DNA of 48,138 nucleotides from IMG/VR virus record IMGVR_UViG_3300021403_000018, positions 1-48,138 of that record. The stretch is one strand, 5' to 3'. The DNA comes from a virus. The position numbers were made by a program, and so were the translations under genes. The notes under the pieces are model-generated. The model was not told where the DNA came from. It saw only the letters and a list, made by a program, of their open reading frames with translations, and did not search any database. Below are positions 11,835 through 33,342 of the stretch, one piece after another. Position 1 is the stretch's first letter, and each line of letters opens with the position of its first letter.

Positions 11835-13292
11835 TTATTCAAGGATGTAAAGATGCCCTAACACCCCATTCTCCTCCCGAAGTTGGTTTGATTCTTTCAG
11901 TGAGGATATAATACTCCTCACCTGTGTCGCCGCAAACTTATACTGCATCTTCCTAATAAGGTTCGAATGTCCGATCGTTCCCCCGGCTGCCCGAATAGCA
12001 CGTAGGATGAGTTCAGCATCTTGTCCAGCTTGGGATTTAAAAAGCTGTCGGAATAGGTTAGGCAGAAACTTCTCATTCCAATCGAGGATTTTAACCGCCC
12101 TCTCAAAGCACTCCTCGCAGATCGTATGGATGTCATATTCATAGTGGGTACCTATATGGAGACACATTGCCAAACGAACAACATGCCCCTGTTTACGTTG
12201 GTAGTAAGTCCCTAACAACTCATGTTCGGGGTGTTGGGAGTCGATTGTGTGTTTACGGTACCAAAGGCAGAATTTGCATCTACAACCTTGGATACCGGTG
12301 TGTCCCCCGATCTTACACGCACCCATAAACGTGTGGAACCAGGAGAGCTGCATCATCAATCTTTCTTTGATAGTCGGGTCGCCAGGTCTTGGAATGGGTT
12401 CACATCTGGAGGAAGATTCTTGGACCACGAGGAGATTACGAGCAACAAATCCACCACCGAAGGTATCCTCGGGAATATTAGTGACAAACCAATCCGGCGT
12501 TGAACACATAAGTACGGAAATGGCGATGTTTCGCAAAGGGGTTTTACCACGCATAATGGTACCAGAAGCCCACTCGTCCGGGCAGTCCATAAAACGAGTG
12601 ATGAGTTGTACCAACCCTTCGTTGTACTTCTGCTTATTGAGAAAAACGGCCATTTCCGGTGCATAAATAAGTCCAGTTGCATTTTCCCCTTTCATGGAAT
12701 CGATTAAAGCCTCCGGTGTTAACTTCTCCGAGTATATAGGCGTAATTTGTAATTCCTGTAACATTTTAACGATAATGTCAGCCGCCGACGTTTTTCTAAG
12801 ACCAGATGGTCCGAGAATAATAACCCCGGTCGCCGGGTAGAAGTTAAAATAACCCATCTCCACCCAAATCCTACGGTTACACACAGCTGCGACGCCAACC
12901 ACTGATGAGAAGAAATGGTATGCAAGTGGTGCTTCCGCGCGAGAGGTATATTCAACATAATCTCGAAAGAAACCCGTAGGGGGGATGAGTGAGTCCAACT
13001 CACGCTCAACCACTTCTGGATCATAACCCGACCGTTTGAAGTTAACGCCCGTTTGATCTCCGTTGTTCGACTGTATCCCATACACCTCCTCGATGAGTTC
13101 ATCTGGGGTTAAACCGAAGGTAGTACACACTATCGTTTTGAGGTTTTCTCGTTCTTCCATCGGGACAGCCCCAGAGTGTAAAGACTTCAAAAACCCCGTT
13201 ACGCCAAGGAAGAGGGTGGAGTCTTTATCAAACCTCTTCCCCTCCATCGCTTGCCTAAACTGTGCTAGTTGTTCTAGTACAGTTCTGCTCAT
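11835..13292 (-). CDS. replicative helicase-like ATPase (DUF3987-type), 485 aa
   Basis: A P-loop GPSGLRKTS (161-169) and a Walker B-like GLIYAPEMA (207-215) sit in a RecA-like core. That core follows a helical region with PPTGFFRDYVEYTSRAEAP (104-122), as in DUF3987 helicase/primase-associated proteins. A small Cys cluster, CRCKFC (337-342), and a C-terminal winged-helix-like segment (EEN...YILE end) follow. No primase (TOPRIM or AEP) motif is visible. The gene overlaps the polymerase gene by 38 bp, so it is probably the phage replicative helicase. Primase activity must come from a domain I do not recognise or from the host. Confidence 0.75.
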   Translation of the reverse strand: MSRTVLEQLAQFRQAMEGKRFDKDSTLFLGVTGFLKSLHSGAVPMEERENLKTIVCTTFGLTPDELIEEVYGIQSNNGDQTGVNFKRSGYDPEVVERELDSLIPPTGFFRDYVEYTSRAEAPLAYHFFSSVVGVAAVCNRRIWVEMGYFNFYPATGVIILGPSGLRKTSAADIIVKMLQELQITPIYSEKLTPEALIDSMKGENATGLIYAPEMAVFLNKQKYNEGLVQLITRFMDCPDEWASGTIMRGKTPLRNIAISVLMCSTPDWFVTNIPEDTFGGGFVARNLLVVQESSSRCEPIPRPGDPTIKERLMMQLSWFHTFMGACKIGGHTGIQGCRCKFCLWYRKHTIDSQHPEHELLGTYYQRKQGHVVRLAMCLHIGTHYEYDIHTICEECFERAVKILDWNEKFLPNLFRQLFKSQAGQDAELILRAIRAAGGTIGHSNLIRKMQYKFAATQVRSIISSLKESNQLREENGVLGHLYILE

Positions 13293-15657
13293 ACCAACGC
13301 TCCTTGGTGAAGGTGTCGTTCCAATTAGGACCTATCTTTGTTTCTGCGCGTAGAAAAAACCCGTTCATTTCGGGGATTGGTGAGGACAGGGTAGCGTCGA
13401 CGTGCTCACAGGCTTCTGTTGCCGTTTTAACGTCTCGAGCAGCCCCTTGAATATTACAGATAACTGAGTCGTGCACCGTAAAAAGGACTCTTGATCTTTC
13501 CCCAAAAAGTCTTGGCAGTGTTCTTTCAAGTGGGAGAATAGCATTTCCTGTAAGCACATCAGGCAGTGTGGACTGGCCTGGGAATGCAAGTATTTGGTTG
13601 TGTTGTCCTCTCGGGTTAGGAAAACGTCGCATCCGTCCAAAGACAGTTTGGAGATAACCGTCTCGTGTGGCTTGGAAGATAAGCTCACTGTGAAAGGGAG
13701 CAACTCGGCTAAATTTTTTATGGTACCAATCCAAGAGCCATTTATATTTAGACTCCACTTGTCTTCTCCCGTACGTAAAACCAAGAGGGTAGGACTTAGT
13801 AACCAAGAGCTTCCAAGGTTCGATGTCTTTGCGGGCGAATTTTTTCTGCCGCGGTTTGCCTGGTTGGAAGTAATCCTCCTTCCAGATTTCTTCGTGGAAG
13901 AACCCATAACAATAATCTCCTGATTGATGTATCGCTAACAACTCTGGGTCTTGGGTGTACCAGGCATAGAGGAAGAACTCAGCCTGGCTGAAATCACTGA
14001 CGAGGATGAGATCATCCGGATGATCCGGGATGACGAGAGAACGTGGAAAGGTACCTCCAAGCTTTTCTGGGATGGTTTGTAGTGATTTATCAACAAGTTG
14101 AATTCTTCCTCCAGCTTGTCCGTGTAGTTTAGCTCGAGTTCTAACTCTCCCATCTTTGTCCGCAAGGTCAACAAAATCTGACGCTTTTCGGAGGGTACGC
14201 ATTTCTTGAACAAGTCCTGCAAGTTGTACTCCTTTTTTCTTCAACCCCTCGAGAGTGTCGTCATCCATACATGGGGTGGAGGTTCCGTTTGGCCGTTTTT
14301 TCAACGGGATTTTGTGTCCCATCGCTGTAAAAAGCGTGATCAACTGTTTTGGGGATCCCCAATCAATAGTTGGGATTTTTTCTTGCCACCAGGTTTCGTT
14401 CGCTTGGAGGGTTTTAGAAAGGGTGATTAACATCTTCATACTTGATTGAGTGTCGTAGTTACAGCCTTTTGTTCTCCAAGCCTCAACCGCTTTTATCACC
14501 GGCATGAGGGACCAGAAGAGCTTCTCCATATTGGTCTTCTTGCGGCGCATCTCTTTCAGGCACTCTTGACCGATCTGCAACGCACCATAGGTGTCACGAC
14601 AGTTCCCGATGGTGTTGTACCTCATTGGGTCCAACTTTCTCCAGTTCTTGTAATACCCAAAATTGCAGTAGTAAGACGCGGCGGTTGCAAAATCAAACGA
14701 CATGATATCCGACCAGAGGAGGTAGAATGCAATCATGGCGTCTGCGGGTTTAATATGGTTAAGGCTCCATCTTTTCCCGAGATGGAGAAAGTCAAAGCCA
14801 CCGTTGTACGCCCATAGTACGACTTCATTCGGTACTCCATCGCCGAACAATGGATCAAGCAGATGGAATTGATCAGGATGAACTCCGATACTTTCTCCAA
14901 CTGCAGCTGAGAGGCCGATAAGGCTAATAGGAGTCTGGATAACTGCGTCCAACTCATCTTCATCAGCAGAGGCTTCTGGAGTCTCAATATCAACTGCGCC
15001 TTCGCGTTGTAGGATAATCCGGTTGACGTATTCAATAACTTCCCTGTCAGATGCGTGTTCAATAAAATTATCTGGTGGGATGACTCGAGAACCTTCTGCA
15101 AACTCTCCAGCACGCTGGACATCATGCTCGAATGAAGGTGCATTGAGAAATCCTGATCGCATGACAAAACTTGGATGCACCGTACCGATAACAATCCGTC
15201 CGTCTGCCAAACGGAGGGGACAACCTCGAAGCCACGCGAAGGGATTTGATTCGGCTGATTTTCTGTTGTGGACAAATTTAATATCCTTTCCGGTTAGGGT
15301 GTCGAAAGCCTCCTTACCAACTGTGAGTATTGTTTTGCAGTTAGAAAGAATCTCCAGTTCTTTCTGGAGGAGTGGCTTGCACTTCTTAACCGCGGCGGGC
15401 TCCACCTTCTCCCCTGCGGGTACGAAACACTTAACTGCATTAGACACGTAGTTTTGCGCCCGGGATATACCGGCTTTTCGAAGTGCAGTGTTAAGCACCT
15501 CACCTGAGGAGCCGGAAAAAGGCTTGCCCGTCTGTCTTTCCGTATCTCCGGGACTTTGTCCGAGGATGAAGAGGGAGGCGTTAGGGTGACCTTCTCCGCG
15601 TACCATAGGTCGATCGAAGTAGGGACAACCGGTACAGGAATCTGGTTTGCCATTCAT
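13255..15657 (-). CDS. UDG-exonuclease-DNA polymerase A fusion, 800 aa
   Basis: Residues 1-185 are a family 4/5-type uracil-DNA glycosylase domain: Cys 8, 11, 77 and 93 for a 4Fe-4S cluster, GQSPG (33-37) and HPS (161-163). Residues about 220-370 are a DnaQ-like 3'-5' exonuclease: DIET (223-226), NGGFDF (285-290) and YNTIGNCRD (347-355). Residues about 390-800 are a family A polymerase: motif A DFSQAE (555-560), motif B ending FTYG (627-630) after Lys 621, and motif C VHDS (728-731), where the usual HDE has Ser for Glu. SPO1 polymerase is a known UDG-domain fusion. Intact glycosylase motifs suggest uracil surveillance during replication. It is the main replicase. Confidence 0.9.
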   Translation of the reverse strand: MNGKPDSCTGCPYFDRPMVRGEGHPNASLFILGQSPGDTERQTGKPFSGSSGEVLNTALRKAGISRAQNYVSNAVKCFVPAGEKVEPAAVKKCKPLLQKELEILSNCKTILTVGKEAFDTLTGKDIKFVHNRKSAESNPFAWLRGCPLRLADGRIVIGTVHPSFVMRSGFLNAPSFEHDVQRAGEFAEGSRVIPPDNFIEHASDREVIEYVNRIILQREGAVDIETPEASADEDELDAVIQTPISLIGLSAAVGESIGVHPDQFHLLDPLFGDGVPNEVVLWAYNGGFDFLHLGKRWSLNHIKPADAMIAFYLLWSDIMSFDFATAASYYCNFGYYKNWRKLDPMRYNTIGNCRDTYGALQIGQECLKEMRRKKTNMEKLFWSLMPVIKAVEAWRTKGCNYDTQSSMKMLITLSKTLQANETWWQEKIPTIDWGSPKQLITLFTAMGHKIPLKKRPNGTSTPCMDDDTLEGLKKKGVQLAGLVQEMRTLRKASDFVDLADKDGRVRTRAKLHGQAGGRIQLVDKSLQTIPEKLGGTFPRSLVIPDHPDDLILVSDFSQAEFFLYAWYTQDPELLAIHQSGDYCYGFFHEEIWKEDYFQPGKPRQKKFARKDIEPWKLLVTKSYPLGFTYGRRQVESKYKWLLDWYHKKFSRVAPFHSELIFQATRDGYLQTVFGRMRRFPNPRGQHNQILAFPGQSTLPDVLTGNAILPLERTLPRLFGERSRVLFTVHDSVICNIQGAARDVKTATEACEHVDATLSSPIPEMNGFFLRAETKIGPNWNDTFTKERWYEQNCTRTTSTV

Positions 15658-16209
15658 CTATTTCCCGTTTCCATTTCTCGCCAGTTCGAGGAAGCGGCGT
15701 TCTTGGTCTGGGTCGGATTGAAACTCCCCTTTGATGGAGTAAGTGCGGAAGTCTCCCTTGGTGTGGACCCCTCGGATTTTGGCGCAACCATGTTTGCCGG
15801 TAACCACACACGCGGCCCCTTTGCAATCAGGAAGAACTTCGTAGATTTTCTCAATCACGTCATTGGTAAATTTTTCTTGCAAGATCGGACCGCGGTTAAT
15901 ATCATGAAGTAACCGGCAGAGTTTGGATAACCCCAACACCTTCCCGTTGGGGATGTAGGCGACGTCCACTGACATCTCTACAGGTAATAAATGGTGAGGA
16001 CACATTCCCCATATTTCATGCCCGCGGAGAAGGATGAAGTTGTTGTAGCGTTCTTCAAATGTTGGGTAATCGACTTCCTTATAGTTAAACATCTCGTCAT
16101 AAAGTCTCGCGACTCTGTCTGGGGTGTCGAAGAAGTTCTGATCACGCATATCACATCCCAACCCCTGTAGGATCAACTTCACACCTTTTTCGATTTTACC
16201 GTGGTCCAA
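15658..16209 (-). CDS. folE: GTP cyclohydrolase I, 183 aa
   Basis: FolE converts GTP to dihydroneopterin triphosphate, the first step of folate and 7-deazaguanine synthesis. Zinc ligands are visible at Cys 70 in GMCPHH (Cys 70, His 73) and Cys 142 in KHGC. The core motifs GLSKLCRLLHD (93-103) and IRGVHTKG (145-152) are present. The start is TTG 16209, 6 nt after GGAGG. With QueD, QueE, QueC and DpdA in the same operon its role is to feed preQ0 synthesis. Full length for the family. Confidence 0.93.
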   Translation of the reverse strand: MDHGKIEKGVKLILQGLGCDMRDQNFFDTPDRVARLYDEMFNYKEVDYPTFEERYNNFILLRGHEIWGMCPHHLLPVEMSVDVAYIPNGKVLGLSKLCRLLHDINRGPILQEKFTNDVIEKIYEVLPDCKGAACVVTGKHGCAKIRGVHTKGDFRTYSIKGEFQSDPDQERRFLELARNGNGK

Positions 16210-17193: not shown

Positions 17194-17922
17194 TCACCTC
17201 AACCCTAAAAACTTATGCAGTTGAACCGATAACTTCCAATCGGGGTGGGTTTTTAATATCTCCATACATCTATCCACATTCTTCTGGTTGACGGTTTTCT
17301 CTTCGTTTATCGGGCAGATGTAAATCTCCTGGGAAAGGCTTTCAGGTATCCATTGGAGTATCTCGGAGACTTTAGCGGTTGAGAAGTTTTCATCTATCAA
17401 CAGTTTTATCTCATCCGCGCACATGATCATTTCTTCGAGATAGTTCCATTTGGGAGCGACGGTAACCCATATCCGGAAGTCGTCTTTCAGTCTGGGGTCT
17501 AGCATAACGGTACCAGAGGTTTCGATGTGGATGTCGATTTTTCTGGCAAACGCTTGTTGAAAGAAACCGGCCTCCAGTAAGGCCTTCTGGTGGATTAGGG
17601 GTTCACCGCCGGTCAGACAGATGTGGTTTTCGTGGGTTTCCCCTATTAGTTCATCGACCGTTTTGTAGGTATGGCAGGAGAAATCGGTGTCACAGGTAAA
17701 TCTTCTACCATCCCAAGTTTTGCATAGAGAACCACGTTGTCCAGATTGCAACACAGGAATTACTTCATGGTCTCCTGGAGATAAGGCAGTTACAGCTTCT
17801 TCGGTAGCCTTAAATCCCACAGGACACCCCGCCAACCGAACAAAATGCATAGGGGTGCCGATGTAGGTGCCCTCACCCTGTATACTATGAAACGTCTCAG
17901 CTACCGGTAGTCGGTTTATCAT
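17194..17922 (-). CDS. queE: 7-carboxy-7-deazaguanine synthase, 242 aa
   Basis: This radical SAM enzyme contracts 6-carboxytetrahydropterin to 7-carboxy-7-deazaguanine. The N-terminus ETFHSIQGEGTYIGTP (9-24) and FVRLAGC (27-33) are diagnostic, as is LTGGEPL (103-109) for SAM binding. The cluster cysteines are spread out (Cys 33, then 67 and 77, the last in CDTD) by an insertion of about 30 residues in place of the compact CxxxCxxC. Such an insertion is known in some bacterial QueE groups. AGDEIKLL-like residues (MCADEIKLL, 167-175) fit the guanine-site strand. It acts between QueD and QueC. Confidence 0.9.
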   Translation of the reverse strand: MINRLPVAETFHSIQGEGTYIGTPMHFVRLAGCPVGFKATEEAVTALSPGDHEVIPVLQSGQRGSLCKTWDGRRFTCDTDFSCHTYKTVDELIGETHENHICLTGGEPLIHQKALLEAGFFQQAFARKIDIHIETSGTVMLDPRLKDDFRIWVTVAPKWNYLEEMIMCADEIKLLIDENFSTAKVSEILQWIPESLSQEIYICPINEEKTVNQKNVDRCMEILKTHPDWKLSVQLHKFLGLR

Positions 17923-18454: not shown

Positions 18455-18858
18455 TTTAGTAGGCTCCCGGGCGGTTGGATTTCTTCGGTTTGGGCGATTT
18501 TTTCTGCTTCGGGGTTTTCTTTGTTTTGGGTTTCTTGTCCTTCATAACGGTTAATTATCTCCTTTCGTAGAGCGGCACGTTTTTTGTTGTGGTAGGATTT
18601 ATGGCAGGAGGAGTGACAATCCGCAATATTCCCCGGAGTATTATTCTCCCGATTCTCATCAATATGGTGTTGGGTAACTTCCTGCGGGAACTGTGTGTGT
18701 CTTCTATGACCTAAAGTTGGTTGATCTACGATAGGCGGGCCTAACTCTCCAGGAGCGTTGACTAACCAACATTGGCAGAAATAACATGTTTTGTAGTAGA
18801 GATATTTCCATGCTAATTCTCTTCCGAATTGGAGTTCGGCTTTAACGTCCGATCGCAT
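18451..18858 (-). CDS. HNH nuclease-like protein, 135 aa
   Basis: A CYFCQC knuckle (25-30) precedes an HNH core: TQHHIDENRENNTPGN (63-78) and CHSSCHKSYH (81-90). The His-His, Asn and His pattern with zinc-binding Cys pairs fits HNH endonucleases. The charged tail has no motif. It overlaps queD by 17 bp. It may be a homing enzyme or a recombination nuclease. Confidence 0.75.
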   Translation of the reverse strand: MRSDVKAELQFGRELAWKYLYYKTCYFCQCWLVNAPGELGPPIVDQPTLGHRRHTQFPQEVTQHHIDENRENNTPGNIADCHSSCHKSYHNKKRAALRKEIINRYEGQETQNKENPEAEKIAQTEEIQPPGSLLK

Positions 18859-19294
18859 TGAACTCCTCCCAGGTTAAACTGCAGGAGGTGGTACAGGTTT
18901 CGTTGAGGGTAAGGGAGGAGAACGGACATCCGGTTTTAACGAGTTGTTTCGCTATTTCTACCAACAGGTTTTCTGAGGTGGGGTTGTACATATTAAACAG
19001 CCATTCAACTTCTTTAGTACCCCAAGGTAAAGTTTGAGTATCACTTCCACGGTGAGTGATTAAAACTCTGTCGGTAGACCAAGCCCCTAAATGCGCATGG
19101 TCGAGGTCGTTGATAATTGGGTTAACCGCCTTCGCCAAATCTCCATAGTCTGCAACCATCCCGGTGTTTGGGTCGATGTCTCCCTTTATCGAGACGGTCA
19201 ACACCCAGGAGTGCCCGTGTAAATTACTGCACTTCCCTGGATGGTTGGGTAATACATGTGAAGCTTCAAACTTGAAGGTTTTACTGATCTCCAT
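18842..19294 (-). CDS. queD: 6-carboxytetrahydropterin synthase, 150 aa
   Basis: QueD turns dihydroneopterin triphosphate into 6-carboxytetrahydropterin. Zinc ligands His 13, His 26 and His 28 (FEASHVL and NLHGH), catalytic Cys 22, DLDHAHL (63-69), PTSENL (105-110) and LNET (130-133) all match the family. There is an insertion of about 15 residues (RGSDTQTLPWGTKEVEW) before PTSENL. It lies in the same operon as folE, queE and queC. Confidence 0.92.
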   Translation of the reverse strand: MEISKTFKFEASHVLPNHPGKCSNLHGHSWVLTVSIKGDIDPNTGMVADYGDLAKAVNPIINDLDHAHLGAWSTDRVLITHRGSDTQTLPWGTKEVEWLFNMYNPTSENLLVEIAKQLVKTGCPFSSLTLNETCTTSCSLTWEEFNAIGR

Positions 19295-20677: not shown

Positions 20678-21082
20678 TCAGATAATTTGGCTGTTAAGGG
20701 CGCGCACACGGAAGACATTGTCTGCAGCCCGACATACCTCTTCAGGGGTTTGTTTGCCGGGCATATCAGGAAGGCCTTTGATAGCAATTGGTTCTTGTGG
20801 AGCTTGACCTTTAACTGTAATCATCCCGCCTTTAGCGTACACCTTTTCGATTTGTTCGTGAGCGATAAATACGACATTCACCCCTTGGTGATCTCCACCT
20901 TGGTCTCGGAGGTTTTTACAGCGACGGATCAACATGTTTAACCGTTCTGTAACTCCGTTGTAGTTGTTTACTCCTCGGATCGAGTCCATGTCGTCGGCAG
21001 ATTTCTTCATATCGTAGGAGAAGTACAGTCGGGCCAGTTCCCCTATAGAGTCGAACGCAACAGTTTTGTATTTAGGTGGCAT
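20678..21082 (-). CDS. Sak4/RecA-like ATPase, Walker B half (first in order)
   Basis: It begins MPPKYKTVAFDSIGELARLY, where TVAFDS (7-12) is the Walker B strand. It continues with NYNGVTERLNMLIRRCKNL (39-57), NVVFIAHEQ (67-75, sensor strand) and a GLPDMPGK segment (102-109), the order seen in the C-terminal part of Sak4-like single-strand annealing ATPases. It ends at a TGA in the same frame as the Walker A half. The start overlaps the queC stop (TAATG), and the Walker A half ends in TAATG with the next gene, so the borders look like normal operon joints. This is a circularly permuted gene, perhaps read through or acting as two chains. Confidence 0.7.
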   Translation of the reverse strand: MPPKYKTVAFDSIGELARLYFSYDMKKSADDMDSIRGVNNYNGVTERLNMLIRRCKNLRDQGGDHQGVNVVFIAHEQIEKVYAKGGMITVKGQAPQEPIAIKGLPDMPGKQTPEEVCRAADNVFRVRALNSQII

Positions 21083-21732
21083 TATACCTCATACTCCGTT
21101 GGGTCGTCGATCTCAGCTAAGATGAAGGCTTCCTTCCGCTCGACACAGGTACCACACTTCCCACAGTGGAGGATTCCTCCCTTATAACACGACCAGGTTT
21201 GGTCCAAAGGGGCGTTCAATTGGTGGCCGAGTTGCACTATCTCCTTCTTGGTTTTATGAATGAAAGGTGCGGTTAGGGCTATAGGTGTCCACTCATTACC
21301 CACAAACAAAGCTTGGATCATTGCGTCGAGGAATTCAGGCCGGCAATCCGGGTAGATTGCATGGTCTCCAGCGTGGGCTGCCCAGGATATAGTTCTTGAA
21401 CCTGTTGCGATCGCCCATCCTGCCGCGATGGATATCATAATCATGTTGCGGTTGGGGACAACTGTTGCTTTCATCGATTCTTCTGCGTAGTGGCCTTCAG
21501 GGACAGGGTCAGAACCTGTCTGGGATCCGGAGGAGATTAGATGTTTAATCATACCGAGATGTGCCACTTCATATTCAATTCCAGCAGTTGTACATATTGT
21601 AACTGCGTGAAGAATTTCACCAACATGACGTTGTCCGTAATTGAATATTATAGCTTTAACATTAGGTCTTAACGACCAAAGTAAAACTGTGCTGTCCAAC
21701 CCTCCCGAAAATAACACGATGGGTTTGCTCAT
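21082..21732 (-). CDS. queC: 7-cyano-7-deazaguanine synthase, 216 aa
   Basis: QueC makes preQ0 from 7-carboxy-7-deazaguanine using ATP and ammonia. The PP-loop SGGLDST (9-15), FNYGQRH (30-36), VVPNRNM (91-97) and four zinc cysteines (182, 190, 193, 196 in CYKGGILHCGKCGTC) are all present. Length is normal. No glutaminase (Gat) domain is fused. It overlaps the upstream nuclease gene by 4 bp. Confidence 0.95.
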   Translation of the reverse strand: MSKPIVLFSGGLDSTVLLWSLRPNVKAIIFNYGQRHVGEILHAVTICTTAGIEYEVAHLGMIKHLISSGSQTGSDPVPEGHYAEESMKATVVPNRNMIMISIAAGWAIATGSRTISWAAHAGDHAIYPDCRPEFLDAMIQALFVGNEWTPIALTAPFIHKTKKEIVQLGHQLNAPLDQTWSCYKGGILHCGKCGTCVERKEAFILAEIDDPTEYEV

Positions 21733-24115: not shown

Positions 24116-24154
24116 ATTTTACATCAAAAATTTTTAAAAACAATAGCCAGTGGG
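24116..24154 (-). promoter_or_regulatory. promoter P2 (CCCACTGG family)
   Basis: Minus strand: CCCACTGG (24147-24154), 3 nt, TTGTTT (24138-24143), 16 nt, TAAAAT (24116-24121). It lies after the stop at 24164 and before ATG 24066. Confidence 0.7.
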
Positions 24155-24163
24155 AAGGTTTCC

Positions 24164-27244: not shown

Positions 27245-27432
27245 TCAGGTTTAGGCATTTCTGCCTTCTCCCGGTATATAGCAGAGAGATCGTCAAACAT
27301 CTCTGCCACAATCTGGTTTAGTTGAACTTCATTCAGTTCTACATTAGCGAAAGCTGTTGCATACAGCCTTATCCTCACACCCGGGAAGGAAGGATGAGTA
27401 AAATGGTGGTCGTGTATTTTAAGCTGCTTCAT
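27241..27432 (-). CDS. unknown 63-aa protein
   Basis: Begins MKQLKIHDHHFTHPSFPGVR. A beta N-terminal half and a helical C-terminal half (NQIVAEMFDDLSAIYREKAE). Overlaps the previous gene by 14 bp and the next by 4 bp (ATGA type). Confidence 0.6.
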   Translation of the reverse strand: MKQLKIHDHHFTHPSFPGVRIRLYATAFANVELNEVQLNQIVAEMFDDLSAIYREKAEMPKPE

Positions 27433-27784
27433 CCTTTACCTCCACACCTAGTTTCTGCAACACCCCTTTAAACCTCTCGACCATTAACGGTTCCCCAAGA
27501 AATATCGCCTGTTGATAGGCTTTTTTATACATCTCCACCTCAGCTGAATCGGCTTGAGGGATAACTTCATTTGTTGTGGTGGTCTTTACCACCTCTCGTG
27601 CTAAAACGGGGGAAGTAACCTTCTCCTTTGGTATTTCCCTCCCACCGTTAAGGATCTTCGCCTCAATCCGGGTCAACTGTTTCTCCCAATATGCAAAATC
27701 TCCCGTTCCAGCAGTCTCCCTCATCATTCGTTTATACTTCCTCCAGTGGGAGCAATAGGAAACATATGTGTTATCTGCGAGCAT
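27419..27784 (-). CDS. unknown 121-aa protein
   Basis: First gene after promoter P4, with GGAGGT before ATG 27784. It has YWEKQLTRIEAKIL, a Thr-rich linker (KTTTTNEV) and a helical C-terminus (YKKAYQQAIFLGEPLMVERF). No motif recognised. Its strong promoter suggests high early expression. Confidence 0.65.
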   Translation of the reverse strand: MLADNTYVSYCSHWRKYKRMMRETAGTGDFAYWEKQLTRIEAKILNGGREIPKEKVTSPVLAREVVKTTTTNEVIPQADSAEVEMYKKAYQQAIFLGEPLMVERFKGVLQKLGVEVKDEAA

Positions 27785-27804
27785 TTTGGACCTCCGATGT
27801 TATC

Positions 27805-27844
27805 ATTATACCTCTTAACTTTTGCTTTTGCAAGAGCCAGTGGG
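27805..27844 (-). promoter_or_regulatory. promoter P4 (CCCACTGG family)
   Basis: Minus strand: CCCACTGG (27837-27844), 3 nt, TTGCAA (27828-27833), 17 nt, TATAAT (27805-27810), followed by a GGAGGT site and ATG 27784. One of the two best copies of the family. Confidence 0.8.
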
Positions 27845-27863
27845 AAGCTGTGACAAAGTAATA

Positions 27864-28084
27864 AAAACAACAGAAGCTTGTATGGTTCTGCCGACGTAAA
27901 GTAGACCATTTGTTACTTCTGTTGTTTTCTCTTGGTTAATACTTCTGTTTTTTAGATTGTTTTTTTTGCTTTTTTTATTTTTATTAAAAAACATGAACCT
28001 CAACACGGAGGAAGAAATAAAAATCACAACTACCCCTTTCTAACGTCGGCAGAACCATCATGACTTTTGTTATTTCTTCCTCCG
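27864..28084. other. paired stem-loops with complementary loops around an AT-rich tract; candidate origin or structured RNA
   Basis: This fills the 319-bp gap between genes at 27784 and 28104. Hairpin A has 13-bp arms (27864-27876 and 27916-27928) and a 39-nt loop. Hairpin B has 15-bp arms (28006-28020 and 28070-28084) and a 49-nt loop. Loop A holds ATGGTTCTGCCGACGT (27882-27897) and loop B holds its exact reverse complement (28043-28058). The roughly 75 bp between them are very AT-rich with runs of T and A (27943-27991). No credible gene lies here. It could be a replication origin with a DNA-unwinding tract or a kissing-loop RNA. Confidence 0.65.
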
Positions 28085-28103
28085 ACGTCCAGAGGTTGAA
28101 GGT

Positions 28104-28319
28104 TTATTCCTCCCTCACCTCAAACGTTAGGGTTTTAGGGGGTGTGGTTGTCGGTAACGACTGGTTGTGGAAGAGGCTGAACTTCGGGATTTGTATTGTC
28201 TGCCCCCGAACTCTTCCTGCCCAGTGGAGGAGGTAGATGTGGTGTTGTTCGGTTTGTCTTACCCACGTGAGCTCGCCCGTGATATGGAACTTCGGTTTCG
28301 GGTTTGTTTTATCTCCCAT
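28104..28319 (-). CDS. unknown 71-aa protein
   Basis: GGAGG precedes ATG 28319 by about 9 nt. Beta-rich with a His cluster (EQHHIYLLHWAG) and a Thr/Pro-rich end. Overlaps the upstream gene by 11 bp. Confidence 0.6.
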   Translation of the reverse strand: MGDKTNPKPKFHITGELTWVRQTEQHHIYLLHWAGRVRGQTIQIPKFSLFHNQSLPTTTPPKTLTFEVREE

Positions 28320-31356: not shown

Positions 31357-33070
31357 GTTGTTACATACCGCGACCAGTGCGCAGGCTGATAGGTTGAGAT
31401 CAACCTTAAGGAGAAAGGTACTGGGACCTCAGTTGGGGTCGTTCTACGTCTTTTGTAAGACGATAATGGGGTATAAAGACCTCACCCCTTCTTTCCATCT
31501 CCCGTTATGTAATGATATACAGTCAACGTTGGGGGATTTGAAACGAGGTTACCTCGAGCCCCGCGGTTCGTTCAAGTCGACTATTGTGGGTAAATCCTAC
31601 CCAGCTTGGAGGTTGTTGGGAGGGGGGTCCCCTTGGATTGAAGACATCCTGAAGTGTGAAGTCAACGATCAGCTGTTGGAGTATTATGATAAGGATCATG
31701 ATGTGGATCCGAGGAACCATCGGATTTTAATCCTCTCGGAAGCCCAGGATATCGCCAATAAGGATCTGAAGGATATCAAGTTTAAGATTGAGAACGACCA
31801 ACAGTTCCAATGGTTGTTCCCCGAGATTATCCCCGAGTCCGTCACTAAAACGGTGTGGAATGCTGGGGAGATTTTACTGCCAAGGTCTCAGTCGTTTGAT
31901 GAGTCCACGTTAACGGCGTTGGGTGCCGATTCTGCAGGAACTGGGTTCCATTATACCATCATTGTGTATGAAGATTTGGCCGGTGAAAAGGCGGCCAAAT
32001 CGGAACCGTTAATGCAGACCGCCAAGGACAGGATTAAGGCATCCCCTGGGTTGTTGGTGAATCCTCGCACATCGGAAGAATTATTCATCGCCACCCGTTG
32101 GAAACACGGTACGGCTGACGTGCCTGGATGGATGATGCAGGAGCTGCCTCATGGGACCACCGAATCAGGCCGCCCCACGGGTTTCAAATGGCATATCCGT
32201 TCCGCTGAAGAGGAAGGCCCGGATGGGGAGAGAATCCCCACCTTCCCTGAAAAGTACCCGATAGAGGTGCTCGACGATATCAAACAGCGCGAGGGGGAGT
32301 ACCTCTACAACTGTAACTATATGAATCGTCCCTCCTCCCCGGAAGGGTCCGATTTCAACCCGAAGTTGTATAAACAATTCTCCATTGGTGAATCTTCCCC
32401 CGGAGTGTTAGACATGATCATCCCAGATGACGGTACGCCCCCCGTTAGGCTCCGCCATCTGTATCGGTTGGGGTTCTACGACCCCTCCTCCGGCGGGAAA
32501 ACAGCCAAGTGCGAAGGCGCGATCGCAATTGTGGCTATGGCAGCTGACCGCCGGGTGTTTGCACTCCGGGTGTGGGGGAAGAACAGTGGGTATGATGAAG
32601 CCCTAGAAAAATTCTCCGTTTTGAACGACCAGTATGTTCTCCACCGCCGGATGTATGAGGCGATCGGGGCTCAAAAGGAAGTTGAAAATATTGTCAAGAT
32701 GAGACGTCAAATCCAGGAGTTGAACGGGAAGTGTTTGAAATGTGAAGCCAAACATCGCAATTTTACCATCGACCCTTTCAACCCCGGCACGCAGAACAAG
32801 GAAGAAAGAATCCGGGCGTTCCTAGGCCCCGCCTACGAACAAGGCAGGTTCTACGTCCGTAAAGGGGAGACCGAGTTTAAAATGCAGATGCAGGACTTCC
32901 CCCACGGTGCCTTGATCGACCGATTGGACGCCACGGCTTCGGGCGTAAAACACCTCCGTGCTCCATTATCAGCCGACGAGATTGAGTCATTACAACTAGA
33001 GACCGAAGCAGTCCATATGCCGAGAGAGTCCCGCACTTTCACCACCCAGAACTACGGAGGGTATGTGTGA
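31349..33070 (+). CDS. terL: terminase large subunit, 573 aa
   Basis: The packaging motor ATPase has a Walker A variant PRGSFKST (71-78) and a Walker B strand TIIVYED (203-209). A coupling SEAQD lies near residue 131. The nuclease domain begins at LGFYDPSSGG (375-383, Asp 378), and a final acidic region lies near LIDRLDATASG. Length is normal. Translation is coupled to the small subunit, and the stop overlaps the GTG of the inserted endonuclease gene. Confidence 0.92.
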   Translation: MDELLHTATSAQADRLRSTLRRKVLGPQLGSFYVFCKTIMGYKDLTPSFHLPLCNDIQSTLGDLKRGYLEPRGSFKSTIVGKSYPAWRLLGGGSPWIEDILKCEVNDQLLEYYDKDHDVDPRNHRILILSEAQDIANKDLKDIKFKIENDQQFQWLFPEIIPESVTKTVWNAGEILLPRSQSFDESTLTALGADSAGTGFHYTIIVYEDLAGEKAAKSEPLMQTAKDRIKASPGLLVNPRTSEELFIATRWKHGTADVPGWMMQELPHGTTESGRPTGFKWHIRSAEEEGPDGERIPTFPEKYPIEVLDDIKQREGEYLYNCNYMNRPSSPEGSDFNPKLYKQFSIGESSPGVLDMIIPDDGTPPVRLRHLYRLGFYDPSSGGKTAKCEGAIAIVAMAADRRVFALRVWGKNSGYDEALEKFSVLNDQYVLHRRMYEAIGAQKEVENIVKMRRQIQELNGKCLKCEAKHRNFTIDPFNPGTQNKEERIRAFLGPAYEQGRFYVRKGETEFKMQMQDFPHGALIDRLDATASGVKHLRAPLSADEIESLQLETEAVHMPRESRTFTTQNYGGYV

Positions 33071-33342
33071 CCTGTGAAATTTGTTCTACTTCTGAAGGTC
33101 GTTTAGTAAGAGACCATAATCATTCAACTGGGATGATTCGTGGCATGTTATGTAATCATTGTAATTGTTGGCTTGGAGTTTACGAAGCCAATTTAAATCG
33201 AGAAAGACAACGTGGTAAAAGTAAGTACAAAGTTTGGGTTATTAAATATGAGAGTATTATTAAATCATATTTAGCACAAGATAAAGGTATTATTTTTCGT
33301 TCTTATCGTCAATTATATCATGGGGTAGATAATGCCCACTAA
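33067..33342 (+). CDS. endonuclease VII-like HNH protein, 91 aa
   Basis: Zinc cysteines 3, 6, 29 and 32 frame RDHNHSTGMIRGMLCNHC, the recombination endonuclease VII / HNH pattern. The GTG start overlaps the terL stop and the TAA overlaps the portal start. The gene is visibly AT-rich (many AAT, TTA, ATT codons) compared with terL and portal on either side, a sign of recent insertion. It is probably a free-standing homing endonuclease, though a resolvase role is possible. Confidence 0.8.
   Translation: MTCEICSTSEGRLVRDHNHSTGMIRGMLCNHCNCWLGVYEANLNRERQRGKSKYKVWVIKYESIIKSYLAQDKGIIFRSYRQLYHGVDNAH

Follow-up and report, generated by a model that had tools for sequence, protein, structure and literature searches.

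A single large imperfect palindrome built around an AT-rich centre is conserved in the genomes of five uncultured tailed phages: that of the window (the whole 48,138-bp stretch of viral DNA analysed here, IMG/VR record IMGVR_UViG_3300021403_000018) and those of four related contigs. As its sequence varies among the phages while its arms stay matched, we regard it as a real working signal; the palindrome is a real and conserved element, and its function is unproven. The reading that we favour, with a probability of about 0.4, is that this DNA-level palindrome would act as a phage replication origin, in which inverted core boxes flank an unwinding tract. Conservation applies to the shape of the element and not to its sequence, and this phage group has no DNA-level relative in the reference phage collection, so that homology-based annotation misses the element.

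Genomic setting and related phages

The window represents a tailed phage, with genes for the large terminase subunit (31349), the portal (33332) and a head protein and protease (37277). A leftward early cluster encodes a primase/helicase-like protein (11835-13292), together with SSB-like and Sak4-like proteins. A PolA-type DNA polymerase (13255-15657, minus strand) carries a fused uracil-DNA-glycosylase domain at its N-terminus. The cluster also encodes homologues of FolE, QueE, QueD and QueC at 15658-16209, 17194-17922, 18842-19294 and 21082-21732, respectively (all minus strand); this set represents a 7-deazaguanine pathway, the purpose of which is possibly DNA base modification.

By our open reading frame calls, no gap in the leftward cluster is longer than the one that the element occupies (27785-28103, 319 nt). 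In all five genomes it begins just past the stop codon of the upstream gene, which bounds it (in the window, 28104-28319, minus strand, 71 aa), and stops at the next promoter. That promoter is of sigma-70 type (27805-27833, minus strand; TTGCAA-N17-TATAAT), is a candidate driver of the downstream gene (27419-27784, minus strand, 121 aa) and has a counterpart in this position in the relatives. The element ends in the box CTTCCCACTGG (27837-27847, minus strand), which is invariant in the five genomes and is repeated at 24147-24157, upstream of a second promoter, where there is no palindrome. At these two positions the box CTTCCCACTGGCT (minus strand) lies directly upstream of leftward promoter-like sequences and may be a shared activator site or an extended promoter of this phage group. 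The first-pass annotation had described the interval as free of genes, and the 61-aa and 70-aa frames that run across it indeed have no evident counterpart in the relatives; a coding role for such short frames was rejected when the frame comparable to the ATG of arm B (see below) was found to stop after six codons in one relative (L101).

Protein searches yielded the four further contigs, which carry the same genes on both sides of the element: L100 (= L002), L101, L102 (= L003) and L113. Their large terminases are ~81% identical to that of the window, and the genes adjoining the element mostly ~50-65%. In 4/4 relatives the element lies at the same place and ends at the same box, CTTCCCACTGGNNCTTGC. 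The protein encoded by the downstream gene is 53-60% identical in three relatives; its homologue in L113 (L113:12034-12411) is unusually diverged (40% identity), while the neighbouring genes there are not. The L113 palindrome is the most diverged of the set, and this joint divergence suggests that the downstream protein and the element may belong together.

Two pattern searches were tried and set aside: TACTTTACGTCGNCA occurred in 95 stretches and, among the loci searched, led to homologues of the window's genes on already known contigs only, and CTTCCCACTGGNNCTTGC occurred in 37, the real ones being the four known relatives only. Homologues of the terminase or of the downstream gene were absent from reference bacterial and archaeal genomes, and reference phages gave neither a DNA match to 25-31 kb nor a match to the downstream protein.

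One palindrome with matched arms

The first-pass annotation had described two hairpins, each exposing a 16-mer that is the exact reverse complement of the other, and had judged three nested perfect inverted repeats to be beyond chance. Both stems were recovered: that of hairpin A (27864-27928, unstranded) is a perfect 13-bp stem (27864-27876/27916-27928) around a 39-nt loop, within what we term arm A, and that of hairpin B (28006-28084, unstranded) is a perfect 15-bp stem (28006-28020/28070-28084), or 18 bp if one mismatch is allowed. The 16-mers at 27882-27897 and 28043-28058 are exact reverse complements, as claimed. Across the 48,138-bp window there are no other perfect inverted repeats of at least 13 bp within 220 bp; 100 dinucleotide shuffles of the window contained a mean of 0.13 such repeats (maximum 2), with a longest perfect repeat of 14 bp, and 16 bp was never reached. 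The three perfect repeats and their improbability stand, and only their nesting was inexact: the stems of the two hairpins are neighbours, and the third repeat links one loop to the other. When searched against viral contigs, the exact 16-mer loop sequence gave one unrelated match, inside an apparent coding region.

All three perfect repeats lie inside one larger imperfect inverted repeat (~27865-27954 versus 27985-28075), in which local alignment of arm B (27985-28075, minus strand) with the reverse complement of the promoter-proximal arm A (27865-27954, minus strand) gave a score of 31, against a shuffle maximum of 21. This is the strongest palindrome in the window (background mean 9.8, SD 2.0, next best 19). 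Across the five genomes, arm-to-arm scores ranged from 31 to 37 and shuffle maxima from 17 to 21 (0/1000 shuffles in each case), and the palindrome was the top outlier of each genome's locus, with one per genome (5/5). Alignable arms measure ~75-135 nt (~90 nt in the window) and the whole palindrome 210-330 bp.

Folding with RNA and DNA energies, a check that the first-pass annotation had proposed, gave different answers for the palindrome and for the hairpins. Arm-arm pairing energies were significant in 5/5 genomes, on both strands and with both sets of parameters (z -6 to -15). By contrast, the local arm A hairpin was beyond shuffles only in the window among the five genomes compared, and the local arm B hairpin was clear in the window, L101 and L113 (3/5), absent in L100 and built from other sequence in L102. 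With hairpin A significant in the window only and hairpin B patchy, the two-hairpin form, with its complementary loops, is a variant of the general palindrome that is specific to the window. The proposal of a kissing-loop RNA made by two separate hairpins is correct in that its repeats are real, and is not supported as a description of the conserved form, which in 5/5 genomes is the one large imperfect palindrome.

Comparison of the arms between phages bore out the covariation that had been anticipated: the arms drift in sequence, each still matching its own partner, and the unpaired drift in relatives that would have told against the element was looked for and did not occur. When each arm B was compared with each arm A (a 5 x 5 table), the arm from the same genome was the best partner in every row and column, and the true arm pairing alone among 120 permutations reached the observed total (1/120), although five related sequences are few and this test does not tell selection apart from arm-to-arm correction. 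RNAalifold yielded no structure from a MAFFT alignment, since the arms have diverged too far to be aligned by sequence.

Arm-to-arm correction deserves mention in its own right, as inverted repeats are known to mutate by template switching (PMC10710837), which, by correcting one arm to the other within a hairpin, would yield matched arms with no function needed. We give very little credence to mutational upkeep of this kind, which leaves unexplained the same placement in five phages with no more than ~55-80% identity between their neighbouring proteins, the single element per genome, the shared core and the shared melting centre.

Compensatory divergence of the arms would likewise be expected of an RNA helix, and it is possible, if somewhat unlikely, that RNA reading through from the upstream early genes forms one long, imperfect hairpin (or two, in the case of the window). 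Such a structure could be a site of RNase III-type processing or could stabilise a 3′ end, dividing the leftward operon into two parts. The location between the upstream stop codon and the next promoter in 5/5 genomes agrees with such a role, and the gene-sense strand folds better against shuffles in 5/5 (z -5.6/-3.3, -9.2/-7.1, -6.7/-4.8, -8.7/-5.7 and -5.8/-5.6); these somewhat stronger sense-strand values count against an origin and hint at RNA. However, the sense strand shows no enrichment of G-U-type mismatches between the arms (25 for gene-sense RNA versus 19 for antisense RNA, with no clear strand bias), as expected of DNA. Moreover, generic double-stranded RNA needs neither a conserved core box nor a conserved A-rich centre, and the element belongs to no Rfam family (Rfam 15, gathering score). 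Taken together, the G-U counts and fold z-scores do not decide between DNA and RNA.

A place between stop codon and promoter, with CATGTTTTTT following hairpin B on the gene strand, would also suit a transcription terminator or insulator separating two early units. This seems quite improbable to us: a scan for a G+C-rich stem with a T run gave no intrinsic terminator within 27785-28103, and a palindrome of 210-330 bp with a conserved core far exceeds a terminator's needs.

Core boxes, AT-rich centre and a candidate origin

Alignment of the ten arms revealed a core, TGMCGNCGT followed by an AT-rich stretch ending in TAG (TGMCGNCGT..TAG), which is present in both arms of 5/5 genomes in inverted orientation. 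In the window, the core box of arm A is ATGGTTCTGCCGACGTAAAGTA (27882-27903, plus strand), 16 nt of which exactly match the reverse complement of the box in arm B, ATGGTTCTGCCGACGT (28043-28058, minus strand). A profile search for the core, built from these same ten arms, rose above background at just the two arms in each genome and gave no further copies outside them. Two other identities were rejected: a single-subunit RNA polymerase promoter, which the core (..CGACGTAAAGTATAG) resembles, given that there is no such polymerase among the proteins scanned and no further core copies, and a protelomerase-type telomere site, given that there is no perfect central palindrome.

Two inverted sites might instead form an operator, at which a phage regulator would loop the DNA and control the promoter at 27805-27833. 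The element abuts the invariant promoter box, the promoter-side arm A is more conserved between phages than arm B, and the element and downstream gene of L113 are both unusually diverged when its other neighbours are not. Yet the palindrome is missing from the other promoter that carries this box, at 24.1 kb, arms of 90-130 nt far exceed the need of two operators and the core is without copies elsewhere, and we consider an operator clearly unlikely.

The middle of the palindrome is an AT-rich, easily melted centre of 80 bp (27913-27992, unstranded). In 4/4 relatives, no other 80-bp stretch of the locus is less stable; in the window the centre ranks second, after a stretch in an HNH-type (Endonuclease_7) gene at 33.2 kb. 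That gene (33067-33342, plus strand), very AT-rich and situated between the large terminase and portal, looks recently inserted. The centre's sequence is nearly common to the window, L101 and L100—it contains AATAAAAAAAGCAAAAAAAACAATCTAA (minus strand), which L101 matches exactly and L100 almost exactly—and is partly kept in L102. In L113 the sequence is lost and the AT-richness is even stronger, as would be expected of an unwinding tract. One 10-mer of the L113 centre (L113:11780-11830), TTAGATTGTT, occurs on the opposite strand in the centres of the window and L101, which may reflect an inversion of the centre; an invertible segment was nevertheless rejected, as the test was not significant overall.

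Several observations argue for a replication origin. The palindrome is the only one of its kind in each genome, its inverted arms are significant in 5/5 and cognate arms are best partners; the core occurs in the two inverted arms only, and the centre is the melting minimum in 4/4 relatives' loci; and the whole occupies the longest gap of a cluster with PolA, primase/helicase and SSB-like genes. In the mechanism that we envisage, an initiator from the phage or the host would bind both of the inverted core boxes (TGMCGNCGT..TAG), and the arms would fold back, as a cruciform or single-strand hairpin, or would bring two bound complexes together. The AT-rich centre would melt, leading to the loading of replication proteins from the same leftward cluster—primase/helicase-like, PolA-type polymerase and SSB-like—and transcription started at the adjacent promoter could assist this melting. 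An origin with an unwinding tract between inverted repeats had been among the first-pass suggestions; with its AT-rich centre and paired, conserved arms the element is compatible with that suggestion, which is our preferred reading and is unproven.

Several negative results speak against an origin. An initiator was sought among the neighbouring small proteins, which gave no family match and, for two models, no significant fold match. GC skew does not change across the element, the cumulative skew minimum lying near 31 kb and tracking gene direction, and direct iterons within 27785-28103 amount to weak two-copy matches only.

If the element is an origin, the combination of outlier palindrome and melting minimum would provide a sequence-only way to locate origins in uncultured phages and would point to an initiator still to be found; if it is RNA, it would be a new conserved phage RNA structure. 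It may also exemplify a class of tailed-phage origins in which one long, rapidly evolving imperfect palindrome replaces direct iterons and a putative initiator co-evolves with the arms, a generalisation that we offer tentatively and regard as doubtful.

Comparison with known systems

RNase III processing hairpins of phage early mRNAs, such as those of T7, are long imperfect hairpins between early genes. The element resembles them in being a long imperfect hairpin in an early-gene gap, but differs in its conserved sequence core and AT-rich centre and in showing no sense-strand excess of G-U mismatches.

Among phage origins, oriR and oriL of SPP1 contain direct repeats, bound by gp38, beside an AT-rich unwinding element, and few intergenic regions of that phage are longer than the one with oriR (PMC6316719). 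Our element shares with oriR an AT-rich unwinding element and a long intergenic region of a tailed phage; unlike oriR and oriL, it has inverted arms only, with no iterons of the SPP1 kind. The several direct repeats that characterise iteron origins (SPP1, lambda) were not found within 27785-28103, and no homologue of SPP1 gp38 or gp39 was identified here.

In pT181-type rolling-circle origins, the RepC initiator recognises a cruciform-forming inverted repeat (PMC9180970). An inverted repeat able to form a cruciform is common to both, but the palindrome described here is much longer and has an AT-rich centre, and there was no rolling-circle Rep among the early proteins scanned.

The oriS of herpes simplex virus has an AT-rich spacer between inverted boxes, with an arm that folds into a hairpin on unwinding (PMC12543377). 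The likeness extends to two opposite-facing boxes, an AT-rich spacer, palindromic arms and a box within a local hairpin of the unwound strand. The features expected of an inverted-box origin—two inverted boxes around an AT-rich spacer and low stability of that spacer—were both found here. The core sequences differ, however, and the arms here are much longer; herpes simplex virus is a eukaryotic virus, and no homology is claimed. No UL9-type initiator/helicase family was recognised among the early proteins scanned, which covered part of the open reading frames and were mostly without any match. The class of palindrome-based origins that we offer tentatively above, and regard as doubtful, would have inverted core boxes on either side of an AT-rich centre that melts, and would be like the herpesvirus oriS in plan, not in ancestry.
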